64,000 nucleotides of DNA from Halonotius aquaticus (GTDB taxonomy: Archaea; Halobacteriota; Halobacteria; Halobacteriales; Haloferacaceae): contig NZ_QKNY01000010.1 of assembly GCF_003605575.1 (NCBI RefSeq), positions 1-64,000 of the forward strand. The letters are read 5' to 3'. Of this stretch, positions 18,052-58,728 are shown piece by piece (position 1 is the first letter of the stretch; each line of letters opens with the position of its first letter). Both the position numbers and the translations under genes were made by a program. A model generated the notes under the pieces. The model was given only the letters and a program-made list of their open reading frames with translations, made no database searches and was not told where the DNA came from.

Positions 18052-18058
18052 TATTATT

Positions 18059-40780: not shown

Positions 40781-42538
40781 TCAGTCACTCCCGAAGCTGC
40801 CGACTTCTCGACCCGTGCTGTTGCGGTCATAGGTGGTGTCACGACTGATCTGATCCGTGCTCGAATAGTCCTCGATGAACATTCCAGCGCTAGCGTCGCT
40901 TTCTCCTGGTGCTGGTTCATCAACACCTCCGCCACCGTCTAGATCACTCCATAGGCCACCATCGCCTGATTCATCTTCCCAGAGAGACCCGGTCGCCCCA
41001 CTAGCCATTTCCCCGAGTTCAGTTTCAGCCGGCGGGAGCGCGGGGAGGTCAGCCTCAGCAAGCTCACCAGACGCGTTTGACCACTGTGTCGCACTATCGT
41101 GACCCCACTTCTCGGTGAACTCCTGACTCCGGCGAGCCATGTTATCCCGAGCTCGCTGCATTCGCTTGCTCATCCCTTTGACGGGTGACTTCGCTGCGCC
41201 GGCTGCCTTCTTTCCAAGCTGTTTGCCACGCCGCTTCGCGCCTTGTTTCGCATCGCTCGCAATCCCCTTCGCCGTGCTCCCGTCCTTCGTATAGTTCTTG
41301 TAGGCGGTTCCGGCTGCAGTTTCGGTGGCAGATCCGCTGGCACTGACGGTCTTTGCGGCCGCACCATGCAACTTCGCTCCGGCTTTTCGACCGCCAACGC
41401 CCACCTTCGCAGCCCGTTCTCGCCGTCGACGAGACTTACTCGCTTTCGGGTGTGCGAACGTGTTACTGTGGGTCGATTCTTGAAGCGATTCACCAGAACC
41501 AGAGTCAGCATCGCCTGCGTCGGAAGACCCACCCCCGAATTCGCCTAATCCGCTTTGAGCAGCTGTGGATGATCCACCTCCACCGCCTGCGGCCGACGTC
41601 GTTGCTCCACCAGGTGTCGAACCTGTAGCCGCACCAGCAGCCGCATATCGGGCTCCACGAGCTGCTGTCGACAATGACGATCCAAGGTTCATCGATAGCA
41701 TTGATTTCGGCAGATACGCCGCGATGGCCAACACGATCAATCCGATAATCATATCGAAGATCTCCCCCGCCCCGGGAACGCCACTAAATGCCACGGTAGA
41801 GACATCGATCACCGCAAACATCGAGAGCAGAAACGCTACAGGAATCGGTATCAACGTTATGGGGACGAATTTCTTGATCAGACTCTCAGCCCAATTACTG
41901 AACGGGCCAACGGGAATACACCAAATCGCTATGAGTAGCGGCATTCCAGCCATGTAGAGATGGATCGAAATCCAACGGATCAGATAGATAGCAAGTACAG
42001 CAGCGATCGGCAGGATTCCCACGACATACAGAACTAAGACTACGACTACGCCGCCAGCAATATCCCCAGGATCGTTGATGAGCAGATTGTCAGTCGCGGA
42101 TTGTTGCATCCCAATCTGCATGAGTAAATCAGTGAATGCCTGGACGAACTGCAAATACCAGCCCGCAATGTACCACCACATCAGGATCGCTGGAATCGCA
42201 AACATTAGCCGTCGAATTGCTGTTACCCGCTCTTTCTTCGCCGACCAGATCCCAGTGAACAAGAACACCGCCAGACCAAGCATCACTAACAGCGTCGAGA
42301 TCGGGAGAATAGCATCGTGGTAGATATTATACAAGCTGTAGAATGAGCTGTCCGTTGGGGGAGCTCCAAAGATACCACCGCTAGCGGGCGAAGGGTACGG
42401 AGTGCCCGTCATAATCCCAACTGCCCAGTTGATGATAGGGCCAAGAACCGTATCTAAAGCAGATACGACAGTTTCCAAGAAACCGTCAAATGCCCCTGTC
42501 AGGGCTTTGTATAATCCCCCTTCGCCACCTTCAGTCAT
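40781..42538 (-). CDS. Polytopic membrane protein, TrbL/VirB6-like channel component
   Basis: 585 residues. About six membrane segments lie in the first 300 residues (for example ILPISTLLVMLGLAVFLFTG, VVVVLVLYVVGILPIAAVLA, FVPITLIPIPVAFLLSMFAV), followed by a long Gly/Ala/Ser-rich and basic tail with KSRRRRERAAK. This is the architecture of TrbL/VirB6 channel proteins. It follows the lipoprotein gene and precedes the ATPase partner. The family assignment is from topology and position, not from motifs. Confidence 0.68.
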   Translation of the reverse strand: MTEGGEGGLYKALTGAFDGFLETVVSALDTVLGPIINWAVGIMTGTPYPSPASGGIFGAPPTDSSFYSLYNIYHDAILPISTLLVMLGLAVFLFTGIWSAKKERVTAIRRLMFAIPAILMWWYIAGWYLQFVQAFTDLLMQIGMQQSATDNLLINDPGDIAGGVVVVLVLYVVGILPIAAVLAIYLIRWISIHLYMAGMPLLIAIWCIPVGPFSNWAESLIKKFVPITLIPIPVAFLLSMFAVIDVSTVAFSGVPGAGEIFDMIIGLIVLAIAAYLPKSMLSMNLGSSLSTAARGARYAAAGAATGSTPGGATTSAAGGGGGSSTAAQSGLGEFGGGSSDAGDADSGSGESLQESTHSNTFAHPKASKSRRRRERAAKVGVGGRKAGAKLHGAAAKTVSASGSATETAAGTAYKNYTKDGSTAKGIASDAKQGAKRRGKQLGKKAAGAAKSPVKGMSKRMQRARDNMARRSQEFTEKWGHDSATQWSNASGELAEADLPALPPAETELGEMASGATGSLWEDESGDGGLWSDLDGGGGVDEPAPGESDASAGMFIEDYSSTDQISRDTTYDRNSTGREVGSFGSD

Positions 42539-42591: not shown

Positions 42592-43371
42592 TCACAGTTT
42601 AGTTATATTTTGAACAGCTGCCTCAGAACAGACATCACCACTTGGGGTGGGATCAACTTCGCCGCCCATCGTCAGGGTTACCTCAAAAGTAACTGGGTTA
42701 CGGTTCTCGAACTCAATAGCACCAGTAAGTTGGTAGTCAGAACCATCACAACTGCCTTCTGGTGGGCGAAGTAGGGTTCCCGAGCTCCCCGTTATAGACA
42801 CAACATTGTTGTCTCGATACGGATCAATCTCAGCAAGGCCAAGAGCTTCACCAGCTCGGTCATCCTCTTCACCAACAACGTAACCATCAGTAAGGTATGC
42901 AGCGGTTGGGGTAAGAGGGATAGATCCGGTTGGCTCAACTTCGATAATTAGCTGTTCATTGAAGTTACCAACGCTACCCCCAGTGATATCGATTCCAGTC
43001 TCAGGTGTCCACTCTATCTGATCTACAACACTGTCCCCGCTGTAGGCAACGATTGTGTACGTATCATCACGAACTGAGCGGCCCTGTCCGTGAATGAACA
43101 GCTCAGCTTGGGTCTGTGCAGGATCGACAGTAGCGTCAGCGACAACATCACCGTCCGGAGATTGTAGCGTGAGTTCATCGATACCATGCTCATCAACGAG
43201 ATCGACAGCAAGATTGAGTTGATCAGGGATTTGCTCATCCTCAACGACTTCAGTACCAGTGATAACGTTGCTTCCCTGCGATCCGCCACCCCCGGTGGAA
43301 CAGCCGGCAAGGGCGACAGTTCCAGCAGCAACGACAGTAGTGAGCACGCTTCGACGTGTTGTGTCACTCAT
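42592..43371 (-). CDS. Tat-exported lipoprotein
   Basis: 259 residues. The N-terminus DTTRRSVLTTVVAAGTVALAGC has twin arginines, a hydrophobic segment and a LAGC lipobox; haloarchaeal lipoproteins are usually exported by Tat in this way. The mature part is beta-rich, with a Gly/Ser spacer right after the cysteine. Probably a surface component of the conjugation apparatus. Inverted-repeat copy 6 lies 79 bp upstream, so this gene and the channel genes downstream may form a separately controlled unit. Confidence 0.8.
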   Translation of the reverse strand: MSDTTRRSVLTTVVAAGTVALAGCSTGGGGSQGSNVITGTEVVEDEQIPDQLNLAVDLVDEHGIDELTLQSPDGDVVADATVDPAQTQAELFIHGQGRSVRDDTYTIVAYSGDSVVDQIEWTPETGIDITGGSVGNFNEQLIIEVEPTGSIPLTPTAAYLTDGYVVGEEDDRAGEALGLAEIDPYRDNNVVSITGSSGTLLRPPEGSCDGSDYQLTGAIEFENRNPVTFEVTLTMGGEVDPTPSGDVCSEAAVQNITKL

Positions 43372-44105: not shown

Positions 44106-44648
44106 CTAGAGCAATCGAAGAGCTGCAACACTCACTGTCGTTATTACACCTAACGCTAATAGCAGCAAATTCGCCACATAGCTGTCGGCCCGACACAGTT
44201 GAATCGGCACTTCATAGTTCGGCCAGACAGGCCAGAGTGGTTGAACACCATATTCCCCTTCGCCAACAGTGAGAAAATCAGCCACCAAGTGACTCACTAT
44301 CCCGAGCACCGTCCCACCGGCGACGATACCGAACAGATACCATGGTTCAGGGTACACCGCTCGAAGGTCTGTGACGAACTCGGCCCGCTGGAAGCCGGCA
44401 AGATAGATGTCACCAACAGCGGCGACAACTGCAGCCATGGCACCGAAGATCACAGCCACCAGTAGTGCGAACCACACGGTGTGGCTGAACCCCCGATGGC
44501 TCAACAGATCCGTTCGGAGGTCGTAGTCGGGGATTCGCTCCGTCGCGACGATCAACAGAGCGATCACAAAACCGGTTGGCGTCGGGGCGATCCCCACGGT
44601 CACCGCCGCGAAAACAAGCGCAACGCCGAGATGGCCACTTCGGTACAT
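44106..44648 (-). CDS. YdjM/DUF457-like integral membrane protein
   Basis: 180 residues from ATG at 44648, whose first base is shared with the upstream stop (TGATG). MYRSGHLGVALVFAAVTVGI, ERIPDYDLRTDLLSHRGFSH and GIVSHLVADFLTV are the membrane His/Asp motifs (HxG, PDxD, HRGxTH-like, H-x-x-x-D) of the YdjM/DUF457 family of predicted metal-dependent membrane hydrolases. Such a gene inside a conjugation cluster is common in haloarchaeal elements, though its role there is unknown. Confidence 0.78.
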   Translation of the reverse strand: MYRSGHLGVALVFAAVTVGIAPTPTGFVIALLIVATERIPDYDLRTDLLSHRGFSHTVWFALLVAVIFGAMAAVVAAVGDIYLAGFQRAEFVTDLRAVYPEPWYLFGIVAGGTVLGIVSHLVADFLTVGEGEYGVQPLWPVWPNYEVPIQLCRADSYVANLLLLALGVITTVSVAALRLL

Positions 44649-46417
44649 CACCAGATCCCCCGCCACGGCGGCCAATAGTCACCAGCAAACGCTCGATCGA
44701 GGAGCCAAAACGGCGTCCAAAAGAAGACCAGTAGCCCGATAATCCGGATGATAGGGCTCACAAAAAACGACAGCGACAGCGTACTCCCGACCCGTGTCGA
44801 TGCTGCAGTGTAGGCTGTCTCGCCACGATCCCAGAAGTACGTCGGTTGGTAGTAGACCTGGGTCGGGAGCTGACCCTGCGGGAGCGTGATCGACGCCTCA
44901 CCATTGGCGTCAGTCTCAACGGCCTCGCCGGCGACCGTGAGAGAGTCATCAGTAAGATCTGTTTGGATCGGCGTGCCATCCGGCTCTCTCAGGCTAATAT
45001 CGAGGCGGACGTTCGGGGACTCCTCAAGTGCTGTTGTCTCAACGTCGATCGTCGGTTCTTTCGTCGGTATCTCCCGGTAGAACGTATCGCCAGGCGAGAG
45101 ATCGGCGTCTGTCCCTCTCACAATACCCTCGATCTCGACGGCGTCGGGGTCGTTGACAGGGTGTGAGACAGCGATCTCACTGGACGTGTTGTAGGTTCCA
45201 TTTGGAACGTCGACAGAGACGGTATCTGGAAGCGTCGGTGCGATATAGCTGCCGCCAGACCGATAGTAGATAGTCGCCTCACCGGGATCGATCGTCGTGT
45301 TCGTGTGATGGGCACCGATTGTGCCAATCCCACTGCGAGACGGGTAGGCGTGGACTTGGACTGGCAGGATTGTCGTCCCGAACTGAGACGTATCGCCACG
45401 ATCTGAGACAGTCAATGCGTCCCACGTCGTATCCCGAGCTGTGTAGTAATTCCATACTCCGAGTGCGCGATCACCTTCAGGGAGCCGGATGCTGTTGAAG
45501 GGTGTCCCGGTTCCGGTAACAACTTTGAACTCCTGGTCGATTGGGTTGTAGGTGTAGTAGTTGTTCGACTGCACTGTGTAGTAGGTCGCATCAACGTAGT
45601 CGTCGACGACGACACTCTCGGACGGATACGAATAGGAGCTTGACCAGTCCGAACACGTGGTATCTCCGTCGTCGTCAGTACTGCAGCTCCGGGTTTCGAC
45701 ATGTTTCTCCAGTGTGACAGTAATCTCGGCTTCGACACCGAGTTCAGTCATTCCTCGCTCAGCTCCGGTGAAATTGCCGTGGATCGTATGCCCAGGAGTG
45801 GCGTCGTCGAGGCGTTGGCGGCCGAACGAATTGTCGACGTTCCCACCGATCATGATACGAGCCGTCTCGACCTCGTGGCTATCAATCGACCAACTCACAC
45901 GCCGCTCTTGTGAGGAGCTACCGTCAGGAACCTCAATGCGGTAGTCGGAAGTAGCGAGCAATTCTCCCTCAGCACCGACGTAATGTGTCGTCTGGTCTGT
46001 CGCACGATGTAACACCGTCGAGGGTTGTACCGCGAACACGGAGACGTAGCCGTCTTTGATCCACTGTCCATCGGTGAGCGTTGCATCAGGTGGGTAGATC
46101 GACGTATCAGTATCATCGCCGCCTTTGAACCGCTCAATCTCGTTTCGATTCCAGATTGCAGGCGTTTCTGGCGGGGAGACGAACGTGCTATCAGTCTGAT
46201 TGCGACGTTCTTCAGCGACAGTCTCGGGCGACTCAACGCTTCCCTCGGCCTCTAGCGACCAAAGTGCATGAAACGCCGACTCATTCAAGCCATTTCGTGG
46301 CTCAGACGGTGGGACATACGCTGAATTAGCGGCTCCAACAGCCCCGACAGTGACCGTAAGAAGAAGCGCGATCCCAACCAGTGTGACGAGAAGTCGCCGC
46401 TGCTGATTACCCAGCAC
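44648..46417 (-). CDS. Large surface-exposed protein of the conjugation cluster
   Basis: 589 residues with an N-terminal signal segment (LLVTLVGIALLLTVTVGAVG), a Thr/Ser/Asp-rich beta-sheet body of about 520 residues, and a C-terminal membrane helix (IIRIIGLLVFFWTPFWLLDR). Residues 235-255 contain two cysteines (RSCSTDDDGDTTCSDWSSSY). Residues about 470-530 (VRLDISLREPDGTPIQTDLT) look Ig-like. It overlaps the VirB4 gene by 11 bp. Likely an extracellular part of the transfer machine, perhaps a contact protein. Confidence 0.65.
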   Translation of the reverse strand: MLGNQQRRLLVTLVGIALLLTVTVGAVGAANSAYVPPSEPRNGLNESAFHALWSLEAEGSVESPETVAEERRNQTDSTFVSPPETPAIWNRNEIERFKGGDDTDTSIYPPDATLTDGQWIKDGYVSVFAVQPSTVLHRATDQTTHYVGAEGELLATSDYRIEVPDGSSSQERRVSWSIDSHEVETARIMIGGNVDNSFGRQRLDDATPGHTIHGNFTGAERGMTELGVEAEITVTLEKHVETRSCSTDDDGDTTCSDWSSSYSYPSESVVVDDYVDATYYTVQSNNYYTYNPIDQEFKVVTGTGTPFNSIRLPEGDRALGVWNYYTARDTTWDALTVSDRGDTSQFGTTILPVQVHAYPSRSGIGTIGAHHTNTTIDPGEATIYYRSGGSYIAPTLPDTVSVDVPNGTYNTSSEIAVSHPVNDPDAVEIEGIVRGTDADLSPGDTFYREIPTKEPTIDVETTALEESPNVRLDISLREPDGTPIQTDLTDDSLTVAGEAVETDANGEASITLPQGQLPTQVYYQPTYFWDRGETAYTAASTRVGSTLSLSFFVSPIIRIIGLLVFFWTPFWLLDRAFAGDYWPPWRGIW

Positions 46418-49175
46418 GGCTGTACTCCCGTAGGTTGCTCACAATTGCCGGGCCAACACCGTCGACAGCTTCGAGCTCTGCGTCAGTCGCTTCCCGGATC
46501 GATTCAAGCGTCGTATAGCCGGCTGTTGAAAGGTTGGCTGCCGTGACATCGTCGACGTACGGTACAGCCGTCCAATCAACTGCAGATCGATCAGAATCAG
46601 CATCGTGTGTATCCTGGCCGCCATCTGGGACTGGTACCTCATTCTCGACCGCCTCGATCTCCACATCGAGTTCGTCAGCGATCTCGGCGAACGTCCCATC
46701 CGCATTGAAGATCCGCTCGCGGTCGACGACAGCCACTTCGTCACCGTCTGCATCGGTAAAGACCACCTCAGGGATGCCCTCAGTCTTGTGAACACGGGTT
46801 TGAATTGTCTCGCTGTATTGCTCGCTGATCTGTCTGGTGAGTTCCTCGACCTGCGGCGGGATCTCGTCAACATCGTTCATCCCCGGTAGCTCACTCGCCG
46901 GTTGACCAGGCTCCCAGTCGACGACTGCCGCTTCGGTATCGCTCGCTGAGATGTGAATCGGCGTCCAGCCATGCCCTGAAATACCGAGGACGCCTTCACT
47001 GTACCCACGTTCCTCGTCGCCCTCCTTTGCTGTCCGCGCAAAGTTGGCCTGAGCAGGGTTCATCCCAATCAAATCAGCGTACTCGTTGGTGAGCCCTTCC
47101 GTCCTGAAGATCAGCTTGTGGGCACAGTTATCGGCGATATATTTCGCCTCCTCGTGCTGGAAGAACTCATCGACAGTCTGTGTGATCAGTTGGATCGAGA
47201 GGTTGTGATGCCGGGAGTGACGCGTCCGCTGTTCGATAAACGAGAGCGCGGATTTGTCTTTCATGATGTAGCGGGCCTCGTCGATTGCGAAGATCACCTT
47301 CTTGTCGGTGGTTTTCGCCCGCTCATAGACCGACGAGAACAGCAGTTTCATCATCAGTCCAAGGGTGTCTCGACCCTCCTGGAGCTGGAGATCGAGCCAG
47401 ACGATGTCCTCCTCGCCAATATTGAACTCGGACTCCCCGCCGAGATGATCCATCGCCCCACCCTCGGCGAAGGGTTGCATCCCAAGCAAGAGCTGGACGG
47501 CTCGGCGACGTTCCTCGTCCAAGGCAGCCTCCACACCCTCGGTATCCATGATTGCCTCGACGTCGTAGCCCTCACGACCAGCAATGAGATCTCGCACAGC
47601 ACTGTTGTCTTTGACGTCGACAATCCGATCTAGCAACACCGGGATCAGGTGCTCTCTGATCGTGGGGTTGGGATTGTCGAAGGTCGTCGGATCATCGAGG
47701 TTGATCCCTTGGAGGGCGTACGCATCACGAATCGCAGACTCCAGCGTGTTCCAGAGCTCGCCAAGCCCGCTGTCCCGGCCACGCATCTCCCAGTGAGAGG
47801 TGAAAAACGATTTGAGGTCTTTCAGCTTGGCCCCACCAGGATCGAGCTGTGGGTTCGCCTCAAGTTTCTCCTCGGAGACGGGTTCAACTTCAAGCGGATT
47901 GAGGCCGAGATTCCCGCCGACAAGGATATGCTGGCCGTCTAAGGCTTCACACGGCCCAGCAAACCCTTCCAGTGGATCGAGCCAAATGAGAATCGTATCG
48001 TCATCGCGAGCGCGTCGACGAACGTGGTGGGTCTTCGTCGAGAATGATTTCCCGGCACCGATGTTCCCGATGGTCAACCAGTTGTACCCATTGCCGTGGG
48101 TGAATCGGTCGTAGAGAATCGGCGTCCGGTTCTGTGCGTTTTCACCGAGTGGAATCCCGCCCTCTTGCAGGATCGTCGACCCAACGAAGGGGAACAACGC
48201 CCCAACGTGTTCGTCCATCATCGACCGCTTCATGTCGATCTCATCGACTGGAACGGGCGATGCAGACCGGTGGGTTGCCTCCTGATCCTTCTTTTTCAGA
48301 ACCGGTTTGAAGCCTTTATCGCGGAGCTTCTGTTCGACCTCGTCACTGACCCGATCAAGTTCGTCCAGTGACGACGCCTCAACGGTGATGTAGAACCCGA
48401 CATCAACCATCCGCTTGCCGTAATCTCGCACCGAATCGCGGAGGGTTTCGTATTCCTGGAGCTTCCGATTGATGTCCTTCGCTGCCGTTCTGTTCCCGTC
48501 GTCGTCAAGTCGATCACGTTCAGCTCGTAGATCGCCGATCGTCGATTTGAGATCGGAAAGAGCCTGCTCCTTATCGACAGGATCGACTTGGATGGCCGTA
48601 TCAACGTCCAAGCCACTCTGTGTGAAGTAATCCTCCATGATGCCGGCGCGGAGACGTTCGGGCCACTCGGCGATGAAATACTCACGGGTGAACGACCGGT
48701 CAAGTTGGAGGTGTTCGTGATTGTCCGGATCTTCCTCGACGTAACTTGGGGCGAGTGCGGATTTATGCCGTTCAGCTGGCTCGTCAAGCACGCGCCCGGA
48801 TTCAGAAGACGTTGGGGTCGCGACGACTTCTGGTGATGTTGCCTCACCCGTAGGTGTGGTCTCCGCCGGCGTCTCGGAAGATTCAGTGTCCAATTCAGAT
48901 TGCTGCTCGGAGGGCGGCGTACTATCAGGATCACTAGCGGGGCTGTCACCCCACAACGGTTGGTCATCGGCTTCGGTATGCTGAAATTGGGGTGTGTCCG
49001 TCGACGGTGGAGTGGGCGACGGCGTGTCAGTTGATTCCGTATCGGACTGACGCATGATCGCAATCCCGATCCCAGCGATGAGACTGACGACACCTAACCC
49101 GATAATCAACAACGTCGATGGCGATACTGGGAGTGCCTCGATACTACCCGGAAGGATCGTTGCTAGAAGGTGCAT
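46407..49175 (-). CDS. VirB4/TraC-like conjugation ATPase with C-terminal helix-hairpin-helix
   Basis: 922 residues from ATG at 49175. An N-terminal membrane helix (TLLIIGLGVVSLIAGIGIAI) is followed by a disordered Pro/Ser/Thr stretch. The VirB4 motor has Walker A IGNIGAGKSFSTK at about 375, LIWLDPLEGFAGPCEALDG, and Walker B VIFAIDEARYI at about 630, then RTRHSRHHNLSIQLITQTVD. The last 60 residues (VPYVDDVTAANLSTAGYTTL, VDGVGPAIVSNLREY) are a helix-hairpin-helix DNA-binding domain, unusual on VirB4. VirB4 proteins power pilus and channel assembly. The following start is 2 bp from the PrgI-like stop. Confidence 0.88.
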   Translation of the reverse strand: MHLLATILPGSIEALPVSPSTLLIIGLGVVSLIAGIGIAIMRQSDTESTDTPSPTPPSTDTPQFQHTEADDQPLWGDSPASDPDSTPPSEQQSELDTESSETPAETTPTGEATSPEVVATPTSSESGRVLDEPAERHKSALAPSYVEEDPDNHEHLQLDRSFTREYFIAEWPERLRAGIMEDYFTQSGLDVDTAIQVDPVDKEQALSDLKSTIGDLRAERDRLDDDGNRTAAKDINRKLQEYETLRDSVRDYGKRMVDVGFYITVEASSLDELDRVSDEVEQKLRDKGFKPVLKKKDQEATHRSASPVPVDEIDMKRSMMDEHVGALFPFVGSTILQEGGIPLGENAQNRTPILYDRFTHGNGYNWLTIGNIGAGKSFSTKTHHVRRRARDDDTILIWLDPLEGFAGPCEALDGQHILVGGNLGLNPLEVEPVSEEKLEANPQLDPGGAKLKDLKSFFTSHWEMRGRDSGLGELWNTLESAIRDAYALQGINLDDPTTFDNPNPTIREHLIPVLLDRIVDVKDNSAVRDLIAGREGYDVEAIMDTEGVEAALDEERRRAVQLLLGMQPFAEGGAMDHLGGESEFNIGEEDIVWLDLQLQEGRDTLGLMMKLLFSSVYERAKTTDKKVIFAIDEARYIMKDKSALSFIEQRTRHSRHHNLSIQLITQTVDEFFQHEEAKYIADNCAHKLIFRTEGLTNEYADLIGMNPAQANFARTAKEGDEERGYSEGVLGISGHGWTPIHISASDTEAAVVDWEPGQPASELPGMNDVDEIPPQVEELTRQISEQYSETIQTRVHKTEGIPEVVFTDADGDEVAVVDRERIFNADGTFAEIADELDVEIEAVENEVPVPDGGQDTHDADSDRSAVDWTAVPYVDDVTAANLSTAGYTTLESIREATDAELEAVDGVGPAIVSNLREYSRAG

Positions 49176-49176
49176 A

Positions 49177-50307
49177 TTAGTCAGGCGAAAGTTTCGTTCC
49201 CGTCGGTGTTGGTTCGAGTTCCCCACCCGGTTCGTAGTCGGTTCGCTGCCATGATTCAGCGATCAATGCGGCGTGATCTTCGGCCGGCAGGATCGTTCCT
49301 TCAACGCCCTCGATCTTTCGTACCTGCTGTTCGACAGCCTCTAACCGGCGATACAGTTGCTCGCGTTGTCGTCCGCGGATCACCGACTCGTGGAGCTCCT
49401 CATCATCGGATGAGAAAATGAACGAGAAGCCCGGCATGTCGGCGAGTTGGTCAATGACGCCCTCAGATCGAGCAGTCGATTTGACCTCAGCCTCGGAGAC
49501 CCCAACAACGACGTAGAACTCTGACTGCTTGGTGCCCTGCATCTCAAGCTCTCGAGGATACCACTCAAGGAAATCACGCAGGACAGCATCAAGGACTGGT
49601 GAGGAGCGGACATCGTCATCATTGAGGCGATTGACGAACGGGTCGAGATACTCCTCGACATCGAAATCCCGCGTTGTGTGGTAGATTTTGATAGAGTGAT
49701 CAACAGTGTTGACGATTCCAGTGAGCTCGCCGACGACACTGCCCCATTGTTGCCCGGTTGCCAATGAGAGATTCGTCGGCTCGACTTTGACTGCACCAGC
49801 GACATCGCCATTAGTGAGACGAACGACGCCGGATGATTCACTAACGGAAGCGGGGAGGATCTCCTCTACATGGGTGACATCCTGTGTCCGTTGGGTACTC
49901 CCGACCGCACTTGCGATGAAGCCCATCTCCTGGTCTTCAGTCGTCTCCCGGTTCTTTTGATCATAGTTGGCCTCCTGGTGGATCACCTCACTCGGCCGTA
50001 CCCGATGTCGGAGGTGCAGCGAAGCCCACTCACGCGGGGAATAGTGCGATGGCGTTGTTAGGAGCGTTACCACGCCGATGAGCGCACACAGAACCGAAAC
50101 GCCGATTCCTGGCCCGAGCAGGATGTACTGGTTGACACTGATCGGAAGCCGAGCGATGATCTCGGGGATGAACACAGCTGACGCGATAAACACCAGTCCA
50201 GCGGGGGCGAACAACAGTGCGTCTTTGACCGTGTATCCCCTGAAGATCGTGAATGAATCTTCTTCCTCTTGGGGGATCGGCTGTGTCTGATTCCGTTGGG
50301 CACTCAT
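49177..50307 (-). CDS. PrgI/VirB3-like protein with cytoplasmic domain
   Basis: 376 residues. Two membrane helices at residues 28-90 (DALLFAPAGLVFIASAVFIP and YILLGPGIGVSVLCALIGVV) are followed by a 270-residue soluble domain (LTNGDVAGAVKVEPTNLSLA, FYVVVGVSEAEVKSTARSEG) resembling the N-terminal domain of VirB4/TraC. Position directly before VirB4 fits the PrgI/VirB3 role of anchoring the ATPase to the membrane. Sequence similarity is not provable by eye. Confidence 0.75.
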   Translation of the reverse strand: MSAQRNQTQPIPQEEEDSFTIFRGYTVKDALLFAPAGLVFIASAVFIPEIIARLPISVNQYILLGPGIGVSVLCALIGVVTLLTTPSHYSPREWASLHLRHRVRPSEVIHQEANYDQKNRETTEDQEMGFIASAVGSTQRTQDVTHVEEILPASVSESSGVVRLTNGDVAGAVKVEPTNLSLATGQQWGSVVGELTGIVNTVDHSIKIYHTTRDFDVEEYLDPFVNRLNDDDVRSSPVLDAVLRDFLEWYPRELEMQGTKQSEFYVVVGVSEAEVKSTARSEGVIDQLADMPGFSFIFSSDDEELHESVIRGRQREQLYRRLEAVEQQVRKIEGVEGTILPAEDHAALIAESWQRTDYEPGGELEPTPTGTKLSPD

Positions 50308-50487: not shown

Positions 50488-50910
50488 TCAGACGCAGGCG
50501 ACGCCGCCAGGGATCAGCCCACTGCCAAGGGCTAGGAGTCCGAACACGAGCGTCGCACCCGCGCCGTAGACGATTGCTTGAGTGATGTTCTCCCGGTGCT
50601 GTTTCGTCTTATCACTCTTGCTGGTCGTTCCAGCCCGGAACATATGCCACGAGACAAACGCCCCAGTTCCAAGCGGAGCCAACCCGCTCATGAGCAACAT
50701 GAAGTTGTTGAACAGGGCCGCCACGTCGGTATCACAGACATCGACACTACCTTCGCCAGCAGTTGTTGCCATCGCAGGATCGATGGCGAATACCGCAACC
50801 ACGGCGAGGGTAAGCAGCCCTGTCCCGAACCGTACCTGAGTAATTGACTGTCGCGTCCACAGCCACGACCGAATTGTGGCAGCGAACAAACTGATTTGGG
50901 ATTGGATCAT
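50488..50910 (-). CDS. VirB2/TrbC-like pilin-type membrane protein
   Basis: 140 residues from ATG at 50910. An N-terminal segment (FGTGLLTLAVVAVFAIDPAMA) looks like a signal peptide with a cleavage site after AMA; two further hydrophobic helices (FNNFMLLMSGLAPLGTGAFV and TQAIVYGAGATLVFGLLALG) match the two-helix layout of VirB2/TrbC pilins, with a small Gly-rich end. It heads the transfer operon, upstream of VirB3- and VirB4-like genes as in classical order. A TATA box lies 29-34 bp upstream. Confidence 0.72.
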   Translation of the reverse strand: MIQSQISLFAATIRSWLWTRQSITQVRFGTGLLTLAVVAVFAIDPAMATTAGEGSVDVCDTDVAALFNNFMLLMSGLAPLGTGAFVSWHMFRAGTTSKSDKTKQHRENITQAIVYGAGATLVFGLLALGSGLIPGGVACV

Positions 50911-51177: not shown

Positions 51178-51525
51178 CTATGATCTGGTTGTGGCCCACT
51201 CTAAGAGTGATTCAAGTCGCTCTTGCACTTCATTTCCTTCCTTCGTAAGGGCGTATTCAACCCGAGGCGGAATTTCGTCGTACTGGGTTCTTGTCACAAG
51301 GTCTGCTTCTTCGAACTCATCCAACCGCTTCGATATCGTTGATGTACTCGCATCTGAGAGATGGGCTTCGATCTCAGCAAACCGCATAGTTTGATGTGCG
51401 CCAATAATGCTGATCAGTTGCATTGCGTACTTCCTACTTAATGTGTTGATAATCCCCGTTAGTGGACAATAACACATTCCATCAACATCACATGTTGGCG
51501 ACTGCTGTGGGGTTGAATCTGCCAT
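51178..51525 (-). CDS. HxlR-family regulator of the mercury cassette
   Basis: 115 residues. Winged helix with TGIINTLSRKYAMQLISIIG, a recognition helix DASTSTISKRLDEFEEADLV and the wing RTQYDEIPPRVEYALTKEGN is the HxlR fold. Cysteines C12, C18 and C20 (SPTCDVDGMCYCPLTG) lie before it and could bind Hg(II) or Cu(I). It is divergent from the mercuric reductase with a 74-bp gap, so it probably represses or activates that gene. No MerR-type protein is present, so this is a likely mercury sensor of the archaeal kind. Confidence 0.82.
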   Translation of the reverse strand: MADSTPQQSPTCDVDGMCYCPLTGIINTLSRKYAMQLISIIGAHQTMRFAEIEAHLSDASTSTISKRLDEFEEADLVTRTQYDEIPPRVEYALTKEGNEVQERLESLLEWATTRS

Positions 51526-51554
51526 TTCTTTGAGGCCTCGAACCTACTCTATAG

Positions 51555-51592
51555 CTTTGGACTTCACAGTATAAACACTTCACTCTCCAAAG
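51555..51592 (+). promoter_or_regulatory. merA promoter with operator arms around the TATA box
   Basis: CTTTGGA at 51555-51561 and TCCAAAG at 51586-51592 are a perfect inverted repeat with a 24-nt spacer. The TATA box GTATAAAC (51569-51576) lies within the spacer, 24-31 bp before the ATG at 51600. Arm centres are 31 bp apart, close to three DNA turns. ACTTCAC also occurs twice, just after the left arm and before the right one. Confidence 0.65.
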
Positions 51593-51599
51593 TCCTCTC

Positions 51600-53057
51600 A
51601 TGACACAACAGCAGTCATATGATCTTATCATTCTCGGTGGCGGAGCAGCTGCCTTCGCAGCAATTACTGAAGCCAGTTCACGAGGCCTCTCGACTGCGCT
51701 CGTCAATACAGGCCTCCCGCTCGGTGGGACGTGTGTCAACGTTGGGTGTGTTCCAAGCAAGCACTTACTCGCACTGGCTGAGACCGCATCTACCCCGGCT
51801 CACAACCCCTTTGATGCTATCAAGTATACCGAGGGAGAACCATCGGTTAATTGGGAAGCAGCACTTGACGGGACAGATCGTCTGGTTGAACAATTCCGAC
51901 AAGAGAACTACGTCTCCGTCGCTGAGCACTTCGAGACAGATATCTACGAGGGATATGGAAGGCTTGTCGGCGATACAACAATTGAAATCACTGATGGAGA
52001 AGATGAAGGATCCCGCATTGAAGGCGAGAAAGCATTGATTGCAACGGGAAGTTCCCCACAGGCGGCCCCTATTGATGGGCTTGACAGTATTGATTATGAG
52101 ACAAGTGAGACGATTCTTGAGCGTCGTGAACTTCCAGAGAGTATTGTTATTATCGGCGGGGGATACATTGCACTGGAGTGGGGACAGATTCTCCATCGTG
52201 TTGGCGTCGATATAACGATCCTCCAGCGTTCCGAGCGTGTGCTATCACAGATGGAAGGCCAACTTGGCAGGGAAATACAGCGGTGTTTCCATGAGGAAGG
52301 AATCAATGTAATCACCGGAACTAATTTCCAACAAGTTCGGTCCAAAAGTGCGGATACTGGCGTCACTGATACTGAAACAAGTGTGGTTGTCGAAACAACG
52401 CTTGATGGTAAAAATCGACAATTTTGTGCAGAAGAATTGTTCGTTGCGACTGGTGTCAAGCCTAATAGCGAAAATATCGGGCTGGATATTGTCGGCATTG
52501 AAACGAACGAGCGTGGCTCAATAGTCGTCGATGATCACTTCCAAACAGCGAATCCAGATGTCTACGCAGCGGGCGATGTCATCGGAAAACCAGAGTTGGA
52601 GACCGTCGCTGCCAAAGAAGGTAATCACGCAATAAAGAATGCCTTCGGAAATGAGGGAAAAACTATCGATTATAACGCCGTGCCTGCGGTCGTATTTACG
52701 AGTCCGGAGGTTGCTGCGGTCGGGACAACGGAACTCGAATATATGGATGAACATGGGACGTGTTCATGCCGGACGGTTCAGATGGAGGATGTACCTAGAG
52801 CGAAAGCAGTGAAAGACACGCGAGGATTACTCCAAGTCGTCAAACATCACGAGACAGACGAAATTGTGGGGGTTCATATGGTCGGGCCTCGGGCTGCCGA
52901 TATGATACCGGAGGCGACGCTTGCTGTGAAATTTGGGCTCACAGTTGACGATATAATCGACACTATCCATCCTTTCCCGAGTTTCAGTGAGGCATTCAAA
53001 CACGCCTGTCAAGCCTTCCGCCGGGATACGTCCACGATGAGTTGTTGTGTTGAATAG
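51600..53057 (+). CDS. merA: Mercuric reductase
   Basis: 485 residues. FAD-binding ILGGGAAAFAA near the N-terminus, the redox-active disulfide GGTCVNVGCVPSK at about 42-54, the NAD(P)H-binding VIIGGGYIALEWGQ, FVATGVKPNS and a C-terminal cysteine pair C482-C483 (SCCVE) are diagnostic of MerA, which reduces Hg(II) to Hg(0) with NADPH. There is no N-terminal heavy-metal-associated domain, as in archaeal forms. Transporter and lyase genes (merT, merP, merB) are not present here. The GC content is lower than in the conjugation genes, consistent with a transferred cassette. Confidence 0.93.
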   Translation: MTQQQSYDLIILGGGAAAFAAITEASSRGLSTALVNTGLPLGGTCVNVGCVPSKHLLALAETASTPAHNPFDAIKYTEGEPSVNWEAALDGTDRLVEQFRQENYVSVAEHFETDIYEGYGRLVGDTTIEITDGEDEGSRIEGEKALIATGSSPQAAPIDGLDSIDYETSETILERRELPESIVIIGGGYIALEWGQILHRVGVDITILQRSERVLSQMEGQLGREIQRCFHEEGINVITGTNFQQVRSKSADTGVTDTETSVVVETTLDGKNRQFCAEELFVATGVKPNSENIGLDIVGIETNERGSIVVDDHFQTANPDVYAAGDVIGKPELETVAAKEGNHAIKNAFGNEGKTIDYNAVPAVVFTSPEVAAVGTTELEYMDEHGTCSCRTVQMEDVPRAKAVKDTRGLLQVVKHHETDEIVGVHMVGPRAADMIPEATLAVKFGLTVDDIIDTIHPFPSFSEAFKHACQAFRRDTSTMSCCVE

Positions 53058-53165: not shown

Positions 53166-54332
53166 TTAGAGAGCGCGGGAGCCGATGATATATCCTCCAC
53201 CGAATCCGCCAATCAGAACCATGACTCCCAGCAACGGGTATACAGGAAAACCGTCTCCACTGGATTCCTGTTGAGGAGGATTTGATTGGGGGAGATCTTT
53301 ACTCGGCGCAAGATTGTCGCTCGTTTCAATGAACGTATCGTGGATTGTATGCGTCGTTGTGTTCGGAAAGGCAGCCGCTTCACCGTCGACAATCAGATTC
53401 GTTAGCGACAGGCTCCAGTGACCACGCCCGATCTCGAAATCGGTGGTCGAAACGTTCACCCGTTCTGTAGCTCCTGGATCAAGATCGATAGCCTGTTGTG
53501 CGACGTTGGTGGTGGCAGCCCCGACACCAGGATCACGAGTGAGTCGGAGGAACGCCTGTGCTGGCTCCTCGCGAGTGTTCTTGAGTGTGAGGATGAGTTG
53601 GTCATCGGATGGGTCGTAGGCAACAATCGACGCCGTCACAGGTGCCTCAGTCGCCATGACGGTCGCCTCAGCCCCGTCACTCCCCGACTGCCGCGTCAGC
53701 GATACTGTTGTCTCACCGGTTTGAGGGGCTGTCACTGCTGCCGATTCGACAGTGCTCTCACCACCGCTGAGGGTGACGGTTCGCTTGCGAGTCGATTCGC
53801 CGTCGTCGAGCTCGAACGTGGCCGTCGTTTCGGTGTCGCCCTGATTGATAATTTCGAAGCCCACAGTCGCTGGTTCGCCGGCGGCAACTGCCTGTCTCGC
53901 CGTCAGTGGACGGACAGTAAGCTGGCTGCCTGATTGGAGTGTTGTCGCATCCACTGTGAGGCGATCGGCGACGAAGGGAACCCCACCATCACGCTCCCAG
54001 AGAGTGACAGCCACGTCAAAGGCTCCACGTTTCGGTGGGGCCTCGGGTTCTAACGTGACGGTTCGCTCCGAGTTTGGCCGGAGTTCGACTGTCACGGTAT
54101 GTTTTGTCGCCCCGGCGGCCTGTACCGTGACATTCGTCGGATGAGATTGTGTATTCCCAACGGTCAGCTCAATTGGTGTAGGTTCACCGACAGTGGCATC
54201 GTCAGGCGTTGTTGAATCGACGAGCGACACGGGTCTCTCAGACTGGGCAGCGACAGCAGGAACCATCACGAACCCAGCTACAGCGATTGCCAGCAACCCA
54301 AACAGAACCACCCGATACGGCATGGAAGACAT
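53166..54332 (-). CDS. Secreted membrane-anchored protein with Ig-like/CARDB-type repeats
   Basis: 388 residues. Signal peptide (RVVLFGLLAIAVAGFVMVPA, then VAAQ), three beta-sandwich domains with the pattern of CARDB/NEW3 domains (VGEPTPIELTVGNTQSHPTN; EPATVGFEIINQGDTETTAT; DQLILTLKNTREEPAQAFLR), a Pro/Gln/Ser linker and a C-terminal helix (YPLLGVMVLIGGFGGGYIIG). Likely cell-surface protein, perhaps part of an adhesion structure. It begins with a TAATG overlap after the TatA gene and is last in the operon starting at 56239. Confidence 0.72.
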   Translation of the reverse strand: MSSMPYRVVLFGLLAIAVAGFVMVPAVAAQSERPVSLVDSTTPDDATVGEPTPIELTVGNTQSHPTNVTVQAAGATKHTVTVELRPNSERTVTLEPEAPPKRGAFDVAVTLWERDGGVPFVADRLTVDATTLQSGSQLTVRPLTARQAVAAGEPATVGFEIINQGDTETTATFELDDGESTRKRTVTLSGGESTVESAAVTAPQTGETTVSLTRQSGSDGAEATVMATEAPVTASIVAYDPSDDQLILTLKNTREEPAQAFLRLTRDPGVGAATTNVAQQAIDLDPGATERVNVSTTDFEIGRGHWSLSLTNLIVDGEAAAFPNTTTHTIHDTFIETSDNLAPSKDLPQSNPPQQESSGDGFPVYPLLGVMVLIGGFGGGYIIGSRAL

Positions 54333-54538
54333 TACTCCTCTCCCTCCGAGGTGTCACCAGCAGGTGCGTTTGATCGGCCCTCCTCCCATGCGGGAATGGC
54401 CTTCCCGAGAGCATGGCCGAGTTTCGGGAGTCGGCTTGTCCCGAACAGCAACAGGAGCAGGATGAGGACAATGATGAGCTCGGGTGGAGCCGCAAACAAC
54501 ACGACCGAATCACTCAACATCGACTTCAACACCTCCAC
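54332..54538 (-). CDS. TatA/E-family twin-arginine translocase subunit
   Basis: 68 residues. PPELIIVLILLLLLFGTSRL, then PKLGHALGKAI at residues 18-48, is the short membrane helix, FG hinge and amphipathic LPxLGxALGKAI helix of TatA. The tail is short and acidic. TatA forms the pore of the Tat route that haloarchaea use for most secretion. It overlaps the upstream gene by 29 bp. A TatA encoded beside a Tat-signal substrate on a mobile element suggests the operon brings its own export help; there is no TatC here, so it must use the host's. Confidence 0.82.
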   Translation of the reverse strand: MEVLKSMLSDSVVLFAAPPELIIVLILLLLLFGTSRLPKLGHALGKAIPAWEEGRSNAPAGDTSEGEE

Positions 54539-55544
54539 TCGCGCCGATATCGTACTGTGACGTGGCGATGAAGTTCAACCGGTTCTGAGCGAGTGTCCCA
54601 TCTTCATCCGAGACGTACAACGCGCTGTCTGGATTCCCGGCCACGCTGACGCGGCCGTTCTCATCAACCTCGATCTCGAAGGGGACTGTCGATGCACTAT
54701 CGGTGTAGGCATAGATCTCGTAGGTGCCGGCTTCCAAGTGTTCCTCAAGCTCGTACTCCCCGTTGCTATCGGCCTCGATGGTACGGCCGTCGTCGGCAAA
54801 CACGATGGTGCCGCCGGAGTAAGGATTCTCGTCTTCGTCGACGATGGTACCATGCAGATAGTTGATCGTCGACAATCGCTCGCCACCGTCAGAAATATTC
54901 AGGTCGGTTTCGTTGAATTGCCATTCCGTTCCACTGAGGTACGCTTCTAAGCGGTCGCCACCAACTTCAGGCGACTCATACGTACAGACCGACGCGATAT
55001 CTGCTGGGTTCTCAGGGAGCTCTCGAACACCATCATGGCAGAGAATCGCTGTCTCGTTGGCGATAATGTACCCGTCGCCGCCGCCAGCCCTATCGCCAAG
55101 ATCGACGACATTCCAGCCGCCCTCGGTGCTCACGACTTGGGTACCGTCGTATGGGGTATCACCTCCATCTTGAAATCCCGCCCCGCCACCGTCGATAGCT
55201 GCCATCCCGACCGTCGGGATGACGACGAACACGAAGATCGCCGCAAAGAAGCCGGCTGCATACTTGAGTGCAGAACGCGAAACTGAGCCTCGAAGCCAGC
55301 TGAGGTCAAACGAGAGGCTCCCGATCCCGAATTGCTTCGGCTTGAGCATCGTTCGTACCGTTTCGGGTGGTACCCGCTCATCGCACTGCGGGCATTTCGT
55401 CCCGTGAATCAACTGCTGGCGTGGGTCGTCGTAGTCGCGTGCGAAGGCTGGATACGGCGCAAGACCCTGCTCGAAACACCGGGGACAGACCATTTCGTGT
55501 CGGGTTTCTGCCTCAATATCCTCGGGCGTGTAGATATCCGACAT
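54510..55544 (-). CDS. Membrane protein with cytoplasmic zinc ribbon and extracellular carboxypeptidase-regulatory-like domain
   Basis: 344 residues. N-terminal CPRC (residues 20-23) and CPQC (about 51-54) form a zinc ribbon; a membrane helix is at about 93-113 (YAAGFFAAIFVFVVIPTVGM). The outer part contains GTIVDEDENPYSGGTIVFAD and GEYELEEHLEAGTYEIYAYT, the CarboxypepD_reg-like beta-sandwich. The start overlaps the stop of the Tat-signal protein by one base (TGATG-type, at 55544). It may connect cytoplasmic events to a surface structure. Confidence 0.68.
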   Translation of the reverse strand: MSDIYTPEDIEAETRHEMVCPRCFEQGLAPYPAFARDYDDPRQQLIHGTKCPQCDERVPPETVRTMLKPKQFGIGSLSFDLSWLRGSVSRSALKYAAGFFAAIFVFVVIPTVGMAAIDGGGAGFQDGGDTPYDGTQVVSTEGGWNVVDLGDRAGGGDGYIIANETAILCHDGVRELPENPADIASVCTYESPEVGGDRLEAYLSGTEWQFNETDLNISDGGERLSTINYLHGTIVDEDENPYSGGTIVFADDGRTIEADSNGEYELEEHLEAGTYEIYAYTDSASTVPFEIEVDENGRVSVAGNPDSALYVSDEDGTLAQNRLNFIATSQYDIGASGGVEVDVE

Positions 55545-56239
55545 CAGCTATCCCCTTCCTGTGGGAGCAGCTCGTTCATCGCTTCAACCCCAGCACTGTA
55601 GGAATCGATTTGGATCGCAAAGTCGCTCCACTCACCGTCGAAATCGACGTGATCCTTGCGGGAGAAATCGGGGTAGCGAAGCCCGAAGTTGGCACCAAGA
55701 TTGTACCCCATCCCGGTATCGAGAATATTGAGGACCTGGAAGGAATCGGTGAGGTACCCAACACTACCGAGCGATGACGCACGCACCTCAACGCGGGCAT
55801 CGTAGGTTCGGGCCTTACACGGGGGGTCAACGCCAGGGGTGATCGCGAGATCGGCAGTCGATATCTCTGAATGCTGTGTGAGGTCGCCGCCGCTCGCGAA
55901 GAGTTCGTCGTGGGTCACCGTGCGGCTGTCGTTGCTGCCACCTGGTGTGAACGAGTAGGTATCGAGGGTTTCCCAACTCCCGCTCGATCCAGCAGGCCGG
56001 ACATCGAAGATGACGGTCAGTTCCTCGTTGCTGGGGATCGATCCCCACTCTATCGAGATCGCCGTATCTTCGGCAACCTGCATCTGCTCAGGTTGGTGCT
56101 CGATATCGAAGGTCGCCGTATCTGAGGCAGTGAGGCCGTCGTCGGCCGCAGCGACCGGCGTGGCGACCGTCGGGAGAAGTACGCTCGCGGTGAAGCCCGC
56201 ACGGAGCGCGTCCCGGCGGGTGAGGGTATGTTCAGACAT
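55544..56239 (-). CDS. Tat-signal secreted protein
   Basis: 231 residues. TLTRRDALRAGFTASVLLPT is a clear twin-arginine signal (RRDAL) with cleavage after VAA. The mature part is beta-rich (FDIEHQPEQMQVAEDTAISI; TYDARVEVRASSLGSVGYLT) without known catalytic motif. It heads a four-gene operon with the zinc-ribbon membrane protein, TatA and the Ig-like protein. A 14-bp palindrome lies exactly 38 nt upstream of its ATG. Confidence 0.78.
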   Translation of the reverse strand: MSEHTLTRRDALRAGFTASVLLPTVATPVAAADDGLTASDTATFDIEHQPEQMQVAEDTAISIEWGSIPSNEELTVIFDVRPAGSSGSWETLDTYSFTPGGSNDSRTVTHDELFASGGDLTQHSEISTADLAITPGVDPPCKARTYDARVEVRASSLGSVGYLTDSFQVLNILDTGMGYNLGANFGLRYPDFSRKDHVDFDGEWSDFAIQIDSYSAGVEAMNELLPQEGDS

Positions 56240-56276
56240 GCCCGGTGGTCGAAACAGATTCCGCTTAACGATTTTC

Positions 56277-56290
56277 TGTATTCAAACACA
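56277..56290 (-). promoter_or_regulatory. 14-bp operator upstream of the Tat-signal protein
   Basis: TGTGTTTGAATACA on the minus strand, beginning 38 nt before the ATG at 56239; differs by one base from the site at 57799-57812, which has the same distance to its gene. Confidence 0.65.
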
Positions 56291-56433
56291 GTTGTTTGTT
56301 AGTTTATGATATGAGTATTTTCAAAGTCAGAGGGAAGCACCTCAGAATCCGGTACTGAGGCAGTTTATTTCAACAACCCCACTCGCCTCGATCGTGGTGG
56401 TCGATTTTGGGGGAATGGGACGCCTTCTTGTGA

Positions 56434-57186
56434 TTATTTGAATAGCGTAACAGAATTTTGAGGGCCACCAGTGGTTTGTGATACTACAGTCGCAGCGTCT
56501 TGTCTAGTGATTACTCCCCCATCTTCAGCTTCATCATGAGTGTTAATGTTCTGCCCACGATTCCAGTATGTTGTATACGAACCACCATTGCCACCAGCTG
56601 TAGTCCCAGTTGGCCCACCTTCACCACCTGAAGCCCCCCTAATCCAGCCGTAGCCATCATCTGTGTAGGTTCCGTAGTCAGCTTCCCCTCCACCGCCACC
56701 AGCAATGGCTATCACATTGCCTTGCCCATCCCGAATAGCAGTTCCACTACCACCCGCACCGGTTGAATAGCTGTATCTATCAATGTATTGATCCTCTTGG
56801 CTCGAAGTCTCGCCTTCAAGACTTCCAGGTCGTAGTTTTAGTGTATTATACGAAGAAAGATCGACTTCGATGGTACCTCTACCGGCTTCTCCTCCCGGAG
56901 ACCAACGTCCAGTTCCCTCACCGCTTTCTCCGACTATTCCGATCCGAACAGTCTCATTTATACCCGATACATCAACCTCAGCATTAGAGGTGTATGTTTG
57001 AGTATCCGGAACATTAGTACCTGTAATAAGTGTCGCCCACCCGCTATCTCCCAAATAAATTTTTTTCGCTGGCGACAGATAACTCGTGTCAACCCATTCA
57101 TCACCTTTCGAAGGACTAGATGGTTGTGTATCGGAAATAATAGGCCCAACCGTCGAGCTTGTTTCTTTTTCATTCCATTCAGCCAT
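56434..57186 (-). CDS. Glycine-rich appendage or tail-fibre-like protein
   Basis: 250 residues from ATG at 57186 (MAEWNEKETSSTVGPIISDT). A short domain with SKGDEWVDTSYLSPAKKIYLG-type phage-fibre pattern (given in part) leads to a beta-rich middle and a Gly-rich region (AIAGGGGGEADYGTYTDDGY, IRGASGGEGGPTGTTAGGNG) typical of phage-tail or appendage tips. No signal peptide. Starts 2 bp after the companion gene. It may be a tip or adhesin of the transfer apparatus or a remnant of viral tail genes. Confidence 0.55.
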   Translation of the reverse strand: MAEWNEKETSSTVGPIISDTQPSSPSKGDEWVDTSYLSPAKKIYLGDSGWATLITGTNVPDTQTYTSNAEVDVSGINETVRIGIVGESGEGTGRWSPGGEAGRGTIEVDLSSYNTLKLRPGSLEGETSSQEDQYIDRYSYSTGAGGSGTAIRDGQGNVIAIAGGGGGEADYGTYTDDGYGWIRGASGGEGGPTGTTAGGNGGSYTTYWNRGQNINTHDEAEDGGVITRQDAATVVSQTTGGPQNSVTLFK

Positions 57187-57188
57187 AG

Positions 57189-57761
57189 TTAGACCTCCCA
57201 CGTTTTCCCGTCACCACGGGTTTTGATTTCGCTGCCTGTTTTGAAGTGATCAGGTGACGGGAGAGCCGATTTCCCAGACCCGTCAGTTGTGGCCCGCCCC
57301 TCGATCTCGAACTTCCCGCCGTCCCCATCGTATTGGACAGCTGTATCGAGCTCGGCGACGAAGTAGCGGTCTCCGTCCTCAGGTTCTGAAATATCGGCGA
57401 TCGTCCCGACGCTATTGAGCGTTTGAGCGTTGACGGACTGCACTTCATCAGAAACCGATTGAACTTGATCGGAGACGGAACTCGATAACGTCTTGAGTTG
57501 CTTGCCGGTCGGAATCGCCTGATCTGGCAGCTCACCCGGCGATTGATTATTGCCTTTGATCACGTAGGGGAGATCCGAACCCTCGACGTTTTCGAGGTCA
57601 TCAAGACTGTCTATGGCTGGTACTGTCTCAGCGTCCAATGCATCAAGAATCGCCTGCATTGCCGCAGGACTGTGTTCGCCCCAGGACTCTATTGACTCGA
57701 ACACCTCAACAAGCCGTGACCGTGTCGTCGGTGGATCGAGTGCTGGCGGATCAGTTGCCAT
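57189..57761 (-). CDS. Fibre-like protein with coiled coil
   Basis: 190 residues from ATG at 57761 (MATDPPALDPPTTRSRLVEV). A helical N-terminus, a short coiled coil (SSVSDQVQSVSDEVQSVNAQ) and a domain ISEPEDGDRYFVAELDTAVQYDG-type (in part) that is common in phage tail fibre and collar proteins. Companion to the Gly-rich protein; together they look like a trimeric fibre plus tip. The operator TGTGTTTGAACACA lies 38 nt upstream. Confidence 0.55.
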   Translation of the reverse strand: MATDPPALDPPTTRSRLVEVFESIESWGEHSPAAMQAILDALDAETVPAIDSLDDLENVEGSDLPYVIKGNNQSPGELPDQAIPTGKQLKTLSSSVSDQVQSVSDEVQSVNAQTLNSVGTIADISEPEDGDRYFVAELDTAVQYDGDGGKFEIEGRATTDGSGKSALPSPDHFKTGSEIKTRGDGKTWEV

Positions 57762-57798: not shown

Positions 57799-57812
57799 TG
57801 TGTTTGAACACA
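57799..57812 (-). promoter_or_regulatory. 14-bp perfect palindrome upstream of the fibre operon
   Basis: TGTGTTTGAACACA, two 6-bp arms, begins 38 nt before the ATG at 57761, the same distance as the near-identical site before 56239. Confidence 0.7.
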
Positions 57813-57894: not shown

Positions 57895-58728
57895 CTACAA
57901 GCAGGAAGTGAAGTCGCAGTACGGATCGTCACTGGCAGCCTCAATGCCAGCTTCTGTGAGGACGATACAGGTTGGTTGATCAGCGTCGACGTGGGTGAGA
58001 TCGAACCACTCGGATCGAGCGTCAATAGCGTCGGTACACATCCGGTGTGTTGTAGTCAAAAGATCGGCTGCGTCTGGGAGGGTGATCGTCTCACCGTCGG
58101 TCGTCGCAAGGTGATTCCGCAGCGACTTCGCAACACCGTACGCACGGGTAGATCGCACCATCGGCGCCGACGATGGAGTCACACTCCCACCATCAGATCG
58201 CATTGTCTGCCCGGTATGGCCATTACCAGATTCGGAATCATCCCCTGGCCGACCCAGCGAAAAAGGAGGGAGTGAAGTATTGTCGATCGATCCGGGCCGA
58301 GCAGTTGCGACCTGGCTGTAGCGTGTGGCAAGGGCATCAAGAACGGCCATGCCACGGTTCGTTGGCTGGTACTCGTTGGCTCGGCCATCAGATTCCGAGG
58401 GAGAACTCTCAACGAGGTCGTGGTTTTCCAGCCAGCGGAGGGTTTGATACGTATACGAGCGGTTGATTTCTGATGTGTCAGCGCGAATCGCTGTCAGGCG
58501 ATCATAGATGTCACAGCCGAGCGGTGGGCTGGACTCATCACTGAGGCGTGTTAGCGTTGCGACGACAGTCAACACATCACGTTGGGTCGCGGTGAGATCA
58601 CAGACATCGCGAGCCGAGAGTTCATTCTCGGCAGGACTTGTACGGTCGTCTCCGGGCTGAGAAGCCCCTCGTTCCAGACACGAGGTTCCTTCGGCAGTCG
58701 TCAGCTGTTCGTGACCGCTCTTTTCCAT
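57895..58728 (-). CDS. PadR-like winged-helix regulator
   Basis: 277 residues. Residues about 42-130 are a winged helix (LTATQRDVLTVVATLTRLSD, YTYQTLRWLENHDLVESSPS) of PadR-like type as in haloarchaeal regulators; a linker of 60 residues leads to a C-terminal helical domain with TLPDAADLLTTTHRMCTDAI. It is adjacent to the fibre operon and its own promoter carries TGTGTTTG, so it is the best candidate to bind the 14-bp operator. Divergent from the gene at 58822. Confidence 0.72.
   Translation of the reverse strand: MEKSGHEQLTTAEGTSCLERGASQPGDDRTSPAENELSARDVCDLTATQRDVLTVVATLTRLSDESSPPLGCDIYDRLTAIRADTSEINRSYTYQTLRWLENHDLVESSPSESDGRANEYQPTNRGMAVLDALATRYSQVATARPGSIDNTSLPPFSLGRPGDDSESGNGHTGQTMRSDGGSVTPSSAPMVRSTRAYGVAKSLRNHLATTDGETITLPDAADLLTTTHRMCTDAIDARSEWFDLTHVDADQPTCIVLTEAGIEAASDDPYCDFTSCL

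Follow-up and report, generated by a model that had tools for sequence, protein, structure and literature searches.

Conjugation of haloarchaea is poorly characterised. The closest counterparts of the locus described here, which lies in a 64,000-nucleotide stretch of Halonotius aquaticus DNA (contig NZ_QKNY01000010.1, positions 1 to 64,000; hereafter the window), are the type IV secretion systems (T4SS) of haloarchaeal plasmids, such as pSTJ001 of Halobacterium hubeiense and a plasmid of Halobacterium noricense. The VirB4 of the window is 52-53% identical to those of both Halobacterium plasmids, and the pilin, the PrgI-like protein, a surface protein ending in WPPWR and either VirD4 or the neighbour gene of VirD4 are conserved as well. 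However, these loci lack the TatA homologue, the Ig-like CARDB protein, the 231-aa Tat-signal protein and the operon for a fibre-like protein that are found in the window, and a zinc-ribbon surface protein (hereafter ZnR) is present in pSTJ001 only. The archaeal DNA transfer systems Ced and Ted, described as domesticated T4SS derivatives, also possess a VirB2-like pilin, a VirB6-like channel and a VirB4-like ATPase, whereas the locus in the window is of plasmid type and includes VirD4 and a surface module (PMC9905601). As for the Tat component, the TatA of the window resembles the TatA/TatE family (PF02416) in its transmembrane helix, its LFG hinge and the start of its amphipathic region, but it is short, plasmid-borne, interrupted by a proline in the helix and without an adjoining TatC. 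A similar arrangement on a mobile element is found in a pleolipovirus-like provirus of another genome (G219), in which a small TatA gene overlaps the gene of a Tat-signal surface protein, although the cargo there is a VP4-like spike.

The block analysed in this study, six genes in two operons, is probably a cell-surface module for mating contact, situated at the 5′ end of the conjugation locus of a haloarchaeal plasmid. With its parA-, cdc6- and integrase-like genes, the 69.7-kb contig looks like a plasmid or an integrative element. Next to the block, and on its strand, lies a type IV secretion/conjugation cluster (35.5-50.9 kb), of which the block occupies the 5′ end (Table 1). In phmmer searches the pilin, the PrgI-like protein, VirB4, the WPPWR protein, the Tat lipoprotein, VirB6 and VirD4 all match genes of haloarchaeal plasmid T4SS. 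VirB4 passes the Pfam AAA_10 cut-off and has strong plasmid homologues, while the NCBIfam VirB4 models match below their cut-offs; the VirB6/TrbL assignment comes from PF19590 (E 2e-11, 43.9 vs 23 bits) and that of VirD4 from PF10412 (25.2 vs 20.5 bits), with 1148 bits to the pSTJ001 homologue. The pilin matches TrbC below the Pfam cut-off and is homologous, with E 4e-8 and 5e-8, to genes that hold the pilin position in two T4SS plasmids. The Tat lipoprotein is conserved in T4SS, and the PLSDB database assigns the MPF_T type to many plasmids with matching T4SS clusters.

Table 1. Features of the surface block and of the neighbouring conjugation locus (positions in the window; aa, amino acids).
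Feature	Position	Strand	Basis or remark
VirD4/TrwB-like coupling ATPase	35521-38958	-	PF10412
VirB6/TrbL channel protein	40781-42538	-	PF19590
T4SS Tat-signal lipoprotein (TRRSVLTTVVAAGTVALAGC)	42592-43371	-	
Surface protein, 589 aa, C-terminal anchor, ends WPPWR	44648-46417	-	Conserved in T4SS clusters
VirB4 ATPase	46407-49226	-	Pfam AAA_10, plasmid homologues
PrgI/VirB3-position T4SS protein	49177-50307	-	E 1e-84 to H. noricense plasmid
VirB2/TrbC-like conjugative pilin	50488-50910	-	Pfam, phmmer
Probable insert between block and T4SS	51178-53057		HxlR-family regulator 51178-51525 (-), MerA 51600-53057 (+)
Ig-like (CARDB) secreted protein, 388 aa, C-terminal membrane anchor	53166-54332	-	Pfam; hydrophobic C-terminus read directly
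TatA homologue, 62 aa	54332-54520	-	PF02416; open frame from GTG 54538
ZnR, 344 aa: zinc ribbon, transmembrane helix, CarboxypepD_reg-like surface protein	54510-55544	-	Shorter than the other family members (1025-1311 aa)
Tat-signal protein, 231 aa, predicted beta-sandwich	55544-56239	-	ORF; one distant relative
Operator-like palindrome TGTGTTTGAATACA, upstream of operon 1	56277-56290	.	
Gly-rich protein, gene 2 of operon 2	56434-57186	-	ORF, ATG 57186; without matches
Fibre-like protein, 190 aa, gene 1 of operon 2	57189-57761	-	ORF; without detectable relatives
Operator-like palindrome TGTGTTCAAACACA, upstream of operon 2	57799-57812	.	
Winged-helix (PadR-like) regulator	57895-58728	-	Weak similarity to regulators of the T4SS loci of H. 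hubeiense and H. noricense

The window also contains a Hma-like defence cluster (11549-21978), comprising an SNF2/PLD helicase, a DUF1156 methylase, a DUF499 ATPase and a DUF7680 protein, as well as a 945-aa protein with several winged-helix/MarR-like matches (291-3128). On the T4SS plasmid of H. noricense, an S-layer glycoprotein-like gene is located close to the genes for transfer (locus L021, 20562-22961).

All six open reading frames of the block are confirmed. The first operon (53166-56239, minus strand) consists of four translationally coupled genes, encoding in order the Tat-signal protein, ZnR, TatA and the CARDB protein (E 1.6e-7 to the Pfam family, with a hydrophobic stretch at the C-terminus). 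The stop of the Tat-protein gene and the start of ZnR overlap in TGATG, the ATG of TatA lies inside the 3′ end of ZnR and is preceded by GGAGGTG, giving a protein of 62 residues, and the stop of TatA overlaps the CARDB start in TAATG. The original prediction of a four-gene operon with a genuine TatA homologue is thus borne out by the reading frames, the overlapping junctions and the Pfam match. In the second operon, the ATG of the Gly-rich gene is preceded by GGGAGGT. The alternative start codons GTG 54538 and GTG 57201 are unlikely to be used.

Between the block and the pilin gene lies a probable mercuric-reductase insert which, like the T4SS beyond it, had been overlooked in the original prediction. 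The near-identical 25-nt match CATCGGCTC[C/T]CGCGCTCTCT-AATT is found at the 3′ end of the CARDB gene and just upstream of the pilin gene, that is, on both sides of the insert, and scores 38, compared with a maximum of 26 in 300 shuffles. Judged from these letters, the arrangement fits an insertion into a formerly continuous order from CARDB to pilin, and since the 25 nt flank the merA insert, we infer that the block was once contiguous with the T4SS.

The 14-bp palindrome TGTGTTYRAAYACA precedes both operons, and its exact matches in the window are confined to these two sites (expected 0.02; the observed number was reached in none of 100 shuffles). Across the 2.47-Mb genome it is found at the two block promoters and at one further site, within the moaA coding sequence. 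This rarity in both window and genome supports well the common operator that had been proposed for both operons, which are apparently coregulated. The winged-helix protein encoded nearby is a candidate for the operator-binding protein.

ZnR ties the block to conjugation. It has a CxxC..CxxC ribbon followed by a single transmembrane helix at about residues 90-118, and it represents only the N-terminal part of a family whose other members comprise 1025-1311 aa. Homologues are encoded in pSTJ001 (1088 aa, 38-39% identical), in two Halorussus plasmids (1118 aa), and in the genomes G099 (four tandem copies) and G358 (1025 aa). The synteny of this family with T4SS genes is plain: in the two genomes and the two Halorussus plasmids, the conjugative pilin follows the homologue either immediately or after one intervening gene. 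The gene order is ZnR, pilin, WPPWR protein in the Halorussus plasmids; ZnR, pilin, a 713-aa protein, VirB6, PrgI-like protein, VirB4 in G358, where PilB, PilC and pilin genes immediately precede ZnR; and tandem ZnR, a 107-aa ORF, pilin, WPPWR protein, Tat lipoprotein, VirB6, PrgI-like protein, VirB4 in G099. In pSTJ001, ZnR is located past VirD4, near VirD4 and VirB4 and thus near the T4SS. Because these homologues flank the pilin or other T4SS genes, ZnR appears to be a surface part of the T4SS rather than of a separate appendage; it is an optional and not a core part, since none of the 17 T4SS plasmids unselected for ZnR carries it.

A ZnR profile run on 392 genomes was swamped by carboxypeptidase-regulatory domains, with full matches in G000, G099 and G169 only and a match over the zinc ribbon in G358; a scan of genome contigs gave a single, irrelevant match in a planctomycete. 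The predicted ZnR model, for which the input alignment consisted of the window protein and the G099 proteins only, is of low confidence and unusable (pLDDT 43). A comparison of the CARDB protein with the ORFs of the related loci, among them the long ZnR proteins, revealed no similarity, which leaves unsupported the idea that the CARDB gene and the short ZnR arose by the splitting of a long ZnR gene.

Two further observations were made around the ZnR homologues. In G099, the four tandem paralogues span the ends of a contig that is likely a circular plasmid (C2:156613-170342 and 26-694), and their divergent C-terminal ends suggest surface-protein variation. Upstream of ZnR in both Halorussus plasmids (loci L015 and L016), TSP3-repeat proteins with variable C-terminal ends are followed by small genes; adjoining the ZnR, pilin and WPPWR genes, these resemble contact-dependent toxin/immunity pairs.

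The role of TatA in the block can be viewed in several ways. The genome has two TatA genes, one on contig C4 and the other on this contig, and TatC is encoded only on C16. Extra Tat pore capacity from the plasmid TatA seems plausible from the gene content, given the two Tat-type substrates encoded by the plasmid and its dependence on the TatC of the host. The 231-aa protein, which starts MSEHTLTRRDALRAGFTASVLLPTVATPVAAA, has a twin-arginine signal before a hydrophobic stretch, TRRDALRAGFTASVLL..AAA, as read directly. Its predicted structure is a partly confident beta-sandwich (pLDDT 55 overall) without a match below E 0.01 in the PDB. One distant relative was found, in the haloarchaeal genome G372 (26-29% identity), one gene away from PilB-/PilC-type pilus genes; the pilus-gene neighbourhoods of G372 and G358 fit, if thinly, a place of the protein in extracellular filaments. 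The TatA gene of G372 (C8:99.6 kb) is located 41 kb away from this relative, so the pairing may be due to chance. In the G219 provirus (C3:814167-816130; locus L117, 6168-8131), the gene of a 63-aa TatA and the start of a Tat-signal gene related to pleolipovirus VP4/VP1 spikes share four bases, hence an element-borne TatA beside its Tat cargo is not unique to the window. An automatic scan for Tat signals around other TatA genes was too permissive, and the convincing pair is that of G219 only. A short TatA directly adjoining a tail-fibre-like gene was also noticed in a provirus-like region of G229 (C19; locus L118, 5743-5910). The literature searched, which covered few subscription papers, contained no report of an archaeal TatA carried by a mobile element or of a TatA within a conjugation locus. 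It may tentatively be proposed, with more doubt than confidence, that haloarchaeal conjugative plasmids and pleolipovirus-like viruses carry a private TatA coupled to their own Tat-exported surface proteins, as an element-encoded tuning of the host Tat translocase for contact machinery.

Alternatively, TatA could be a passenger, a small gene picked up by the plasmid without effect or with some other action (e.g., that of a membrane-active peptide), the T4SS surface module being formed by the remainder of the block. In accordance with this, none of 20 other haloarchaeal plasmids carries a TatA by the Pfam profile (a tblastn search gave nothing at E 1, probably owing to masking by the low-complexity filter, and was repeated with the profile), whereas 18 of them have a relative of this VirB4, those without a VirB4 match being the two Halorussus ZnR plasmids. 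The T4SS therefore has no general need for TatA, which within this sample is a peculiarity of the present plasmid. The protein also falls below the NCBIfam cut-off (TIGR01411, 43.5 vs 53.9 bits), and a proline breaks its amphipathic helix (AIPAWEEG, read directly). Nonetheless, the Pfam cut-off is passed (E 9e-10, 38 bits vs 21), the frame is open and coding-like (GC3 0.70) with a good ribosome site and overlaps with both neighbours, and the provirus offers a parallel TatA-cargo overlap, all of which make a passenger unlikely. It is less probable still that the block is an independent, dedicated appendage or contact structure unrelated to conjugation, as had originally been suggested. This would agree with its own operator and two apparently coregulated operons. 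Moreover, of the six proteins ZnR alone has a counterpart in the related T4SS loci; the other five (the Tat-signal protein, TatA and the CARDB, Gly-rich and fibre-like proteins) have none, which also counts against a T4SS module. However, ZnR is consistently found within T4SS clusters and a same-strand T4SS adjoins the block, so that the apparently coregulated surface or contact module of that proposal holds while its stand-alone character does not.

The lowest probability is given to the capture by the plasmid of a viral or proviral remnant, comprising genes for a tail tip and for surface proteins. The Gly-rich gene is of deviating composition (GC3 0.32), TatA has a match (E 2e-4) to a viral PHROG without an assigned function, and the G229 region mentioned above has a TatA beside a tail-fibre-like gene. 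On the contrary, capsid, tail and packaging matches in PHROG are absent for every block protein, phage or viral-contig relatives were not found, and the ZnR family is plasmid- and T4SS-borne. For the second operon in particular, neither the fibre-like nor the Gly-rich protein has a match of weight in Pfam, PHROGs, phages, plasmids or viral contigs, and the fibre-like protein has no relatives among 292 genomes of the class either; a phage-tail origin was accordingly rejected. The reading frames of this operon stand, but the likeness to phage tail tips once attributed to them was a compositional impression without any tail-family match. The linkage of the two operons in other genomes, on which the original prediction had made itself depend, was not seen, as relatives of the proteins of the second operon could not be detected at all.

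In the mechanism that we infer for a mating-contact module, which extends to the contact function, the membrane topology, the action of TatA and the identity of the regulator, a plasmid regulator (the winged-helix candidate) would switch both operons through the common palindrome. ZnR would be anchored by its one transmembrane helix, with the zinc ribbon in the cytoplasm and the carboxypeptidase-regulatory-like beta domain outside the cell, and it would take part in building or decorating the transfer channel alongside the VirB2-like pilin, the WPPWR protein, VirB6 and VirB4. Outside the membrane, adhesion or stabilisation may fall to the CARDB protein and to the beta-sandwich protein exported by Tat. 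The plasmid TatA would join the host TatC and increase the export of folded Tat cargo during induction of the module, this cargo being the 231-aa protein and the T4SS Tat lipoprotein.

The tandem of ZnR, pilin and WPPWR protein provides a defined surface module for haloarchaeal conjugation, and the coupling of TatA to a cargo gene connects Tat export with conjugation in a way that can be tested. If an element-borne TatA boosts the export of its coupled cargo, mobile elements would adjust the translocase of their host. If true, one extra TatA with one coupled cargo would also constitute a compact genetic system in which to ask whether TatA paralogues confer cargo preference.
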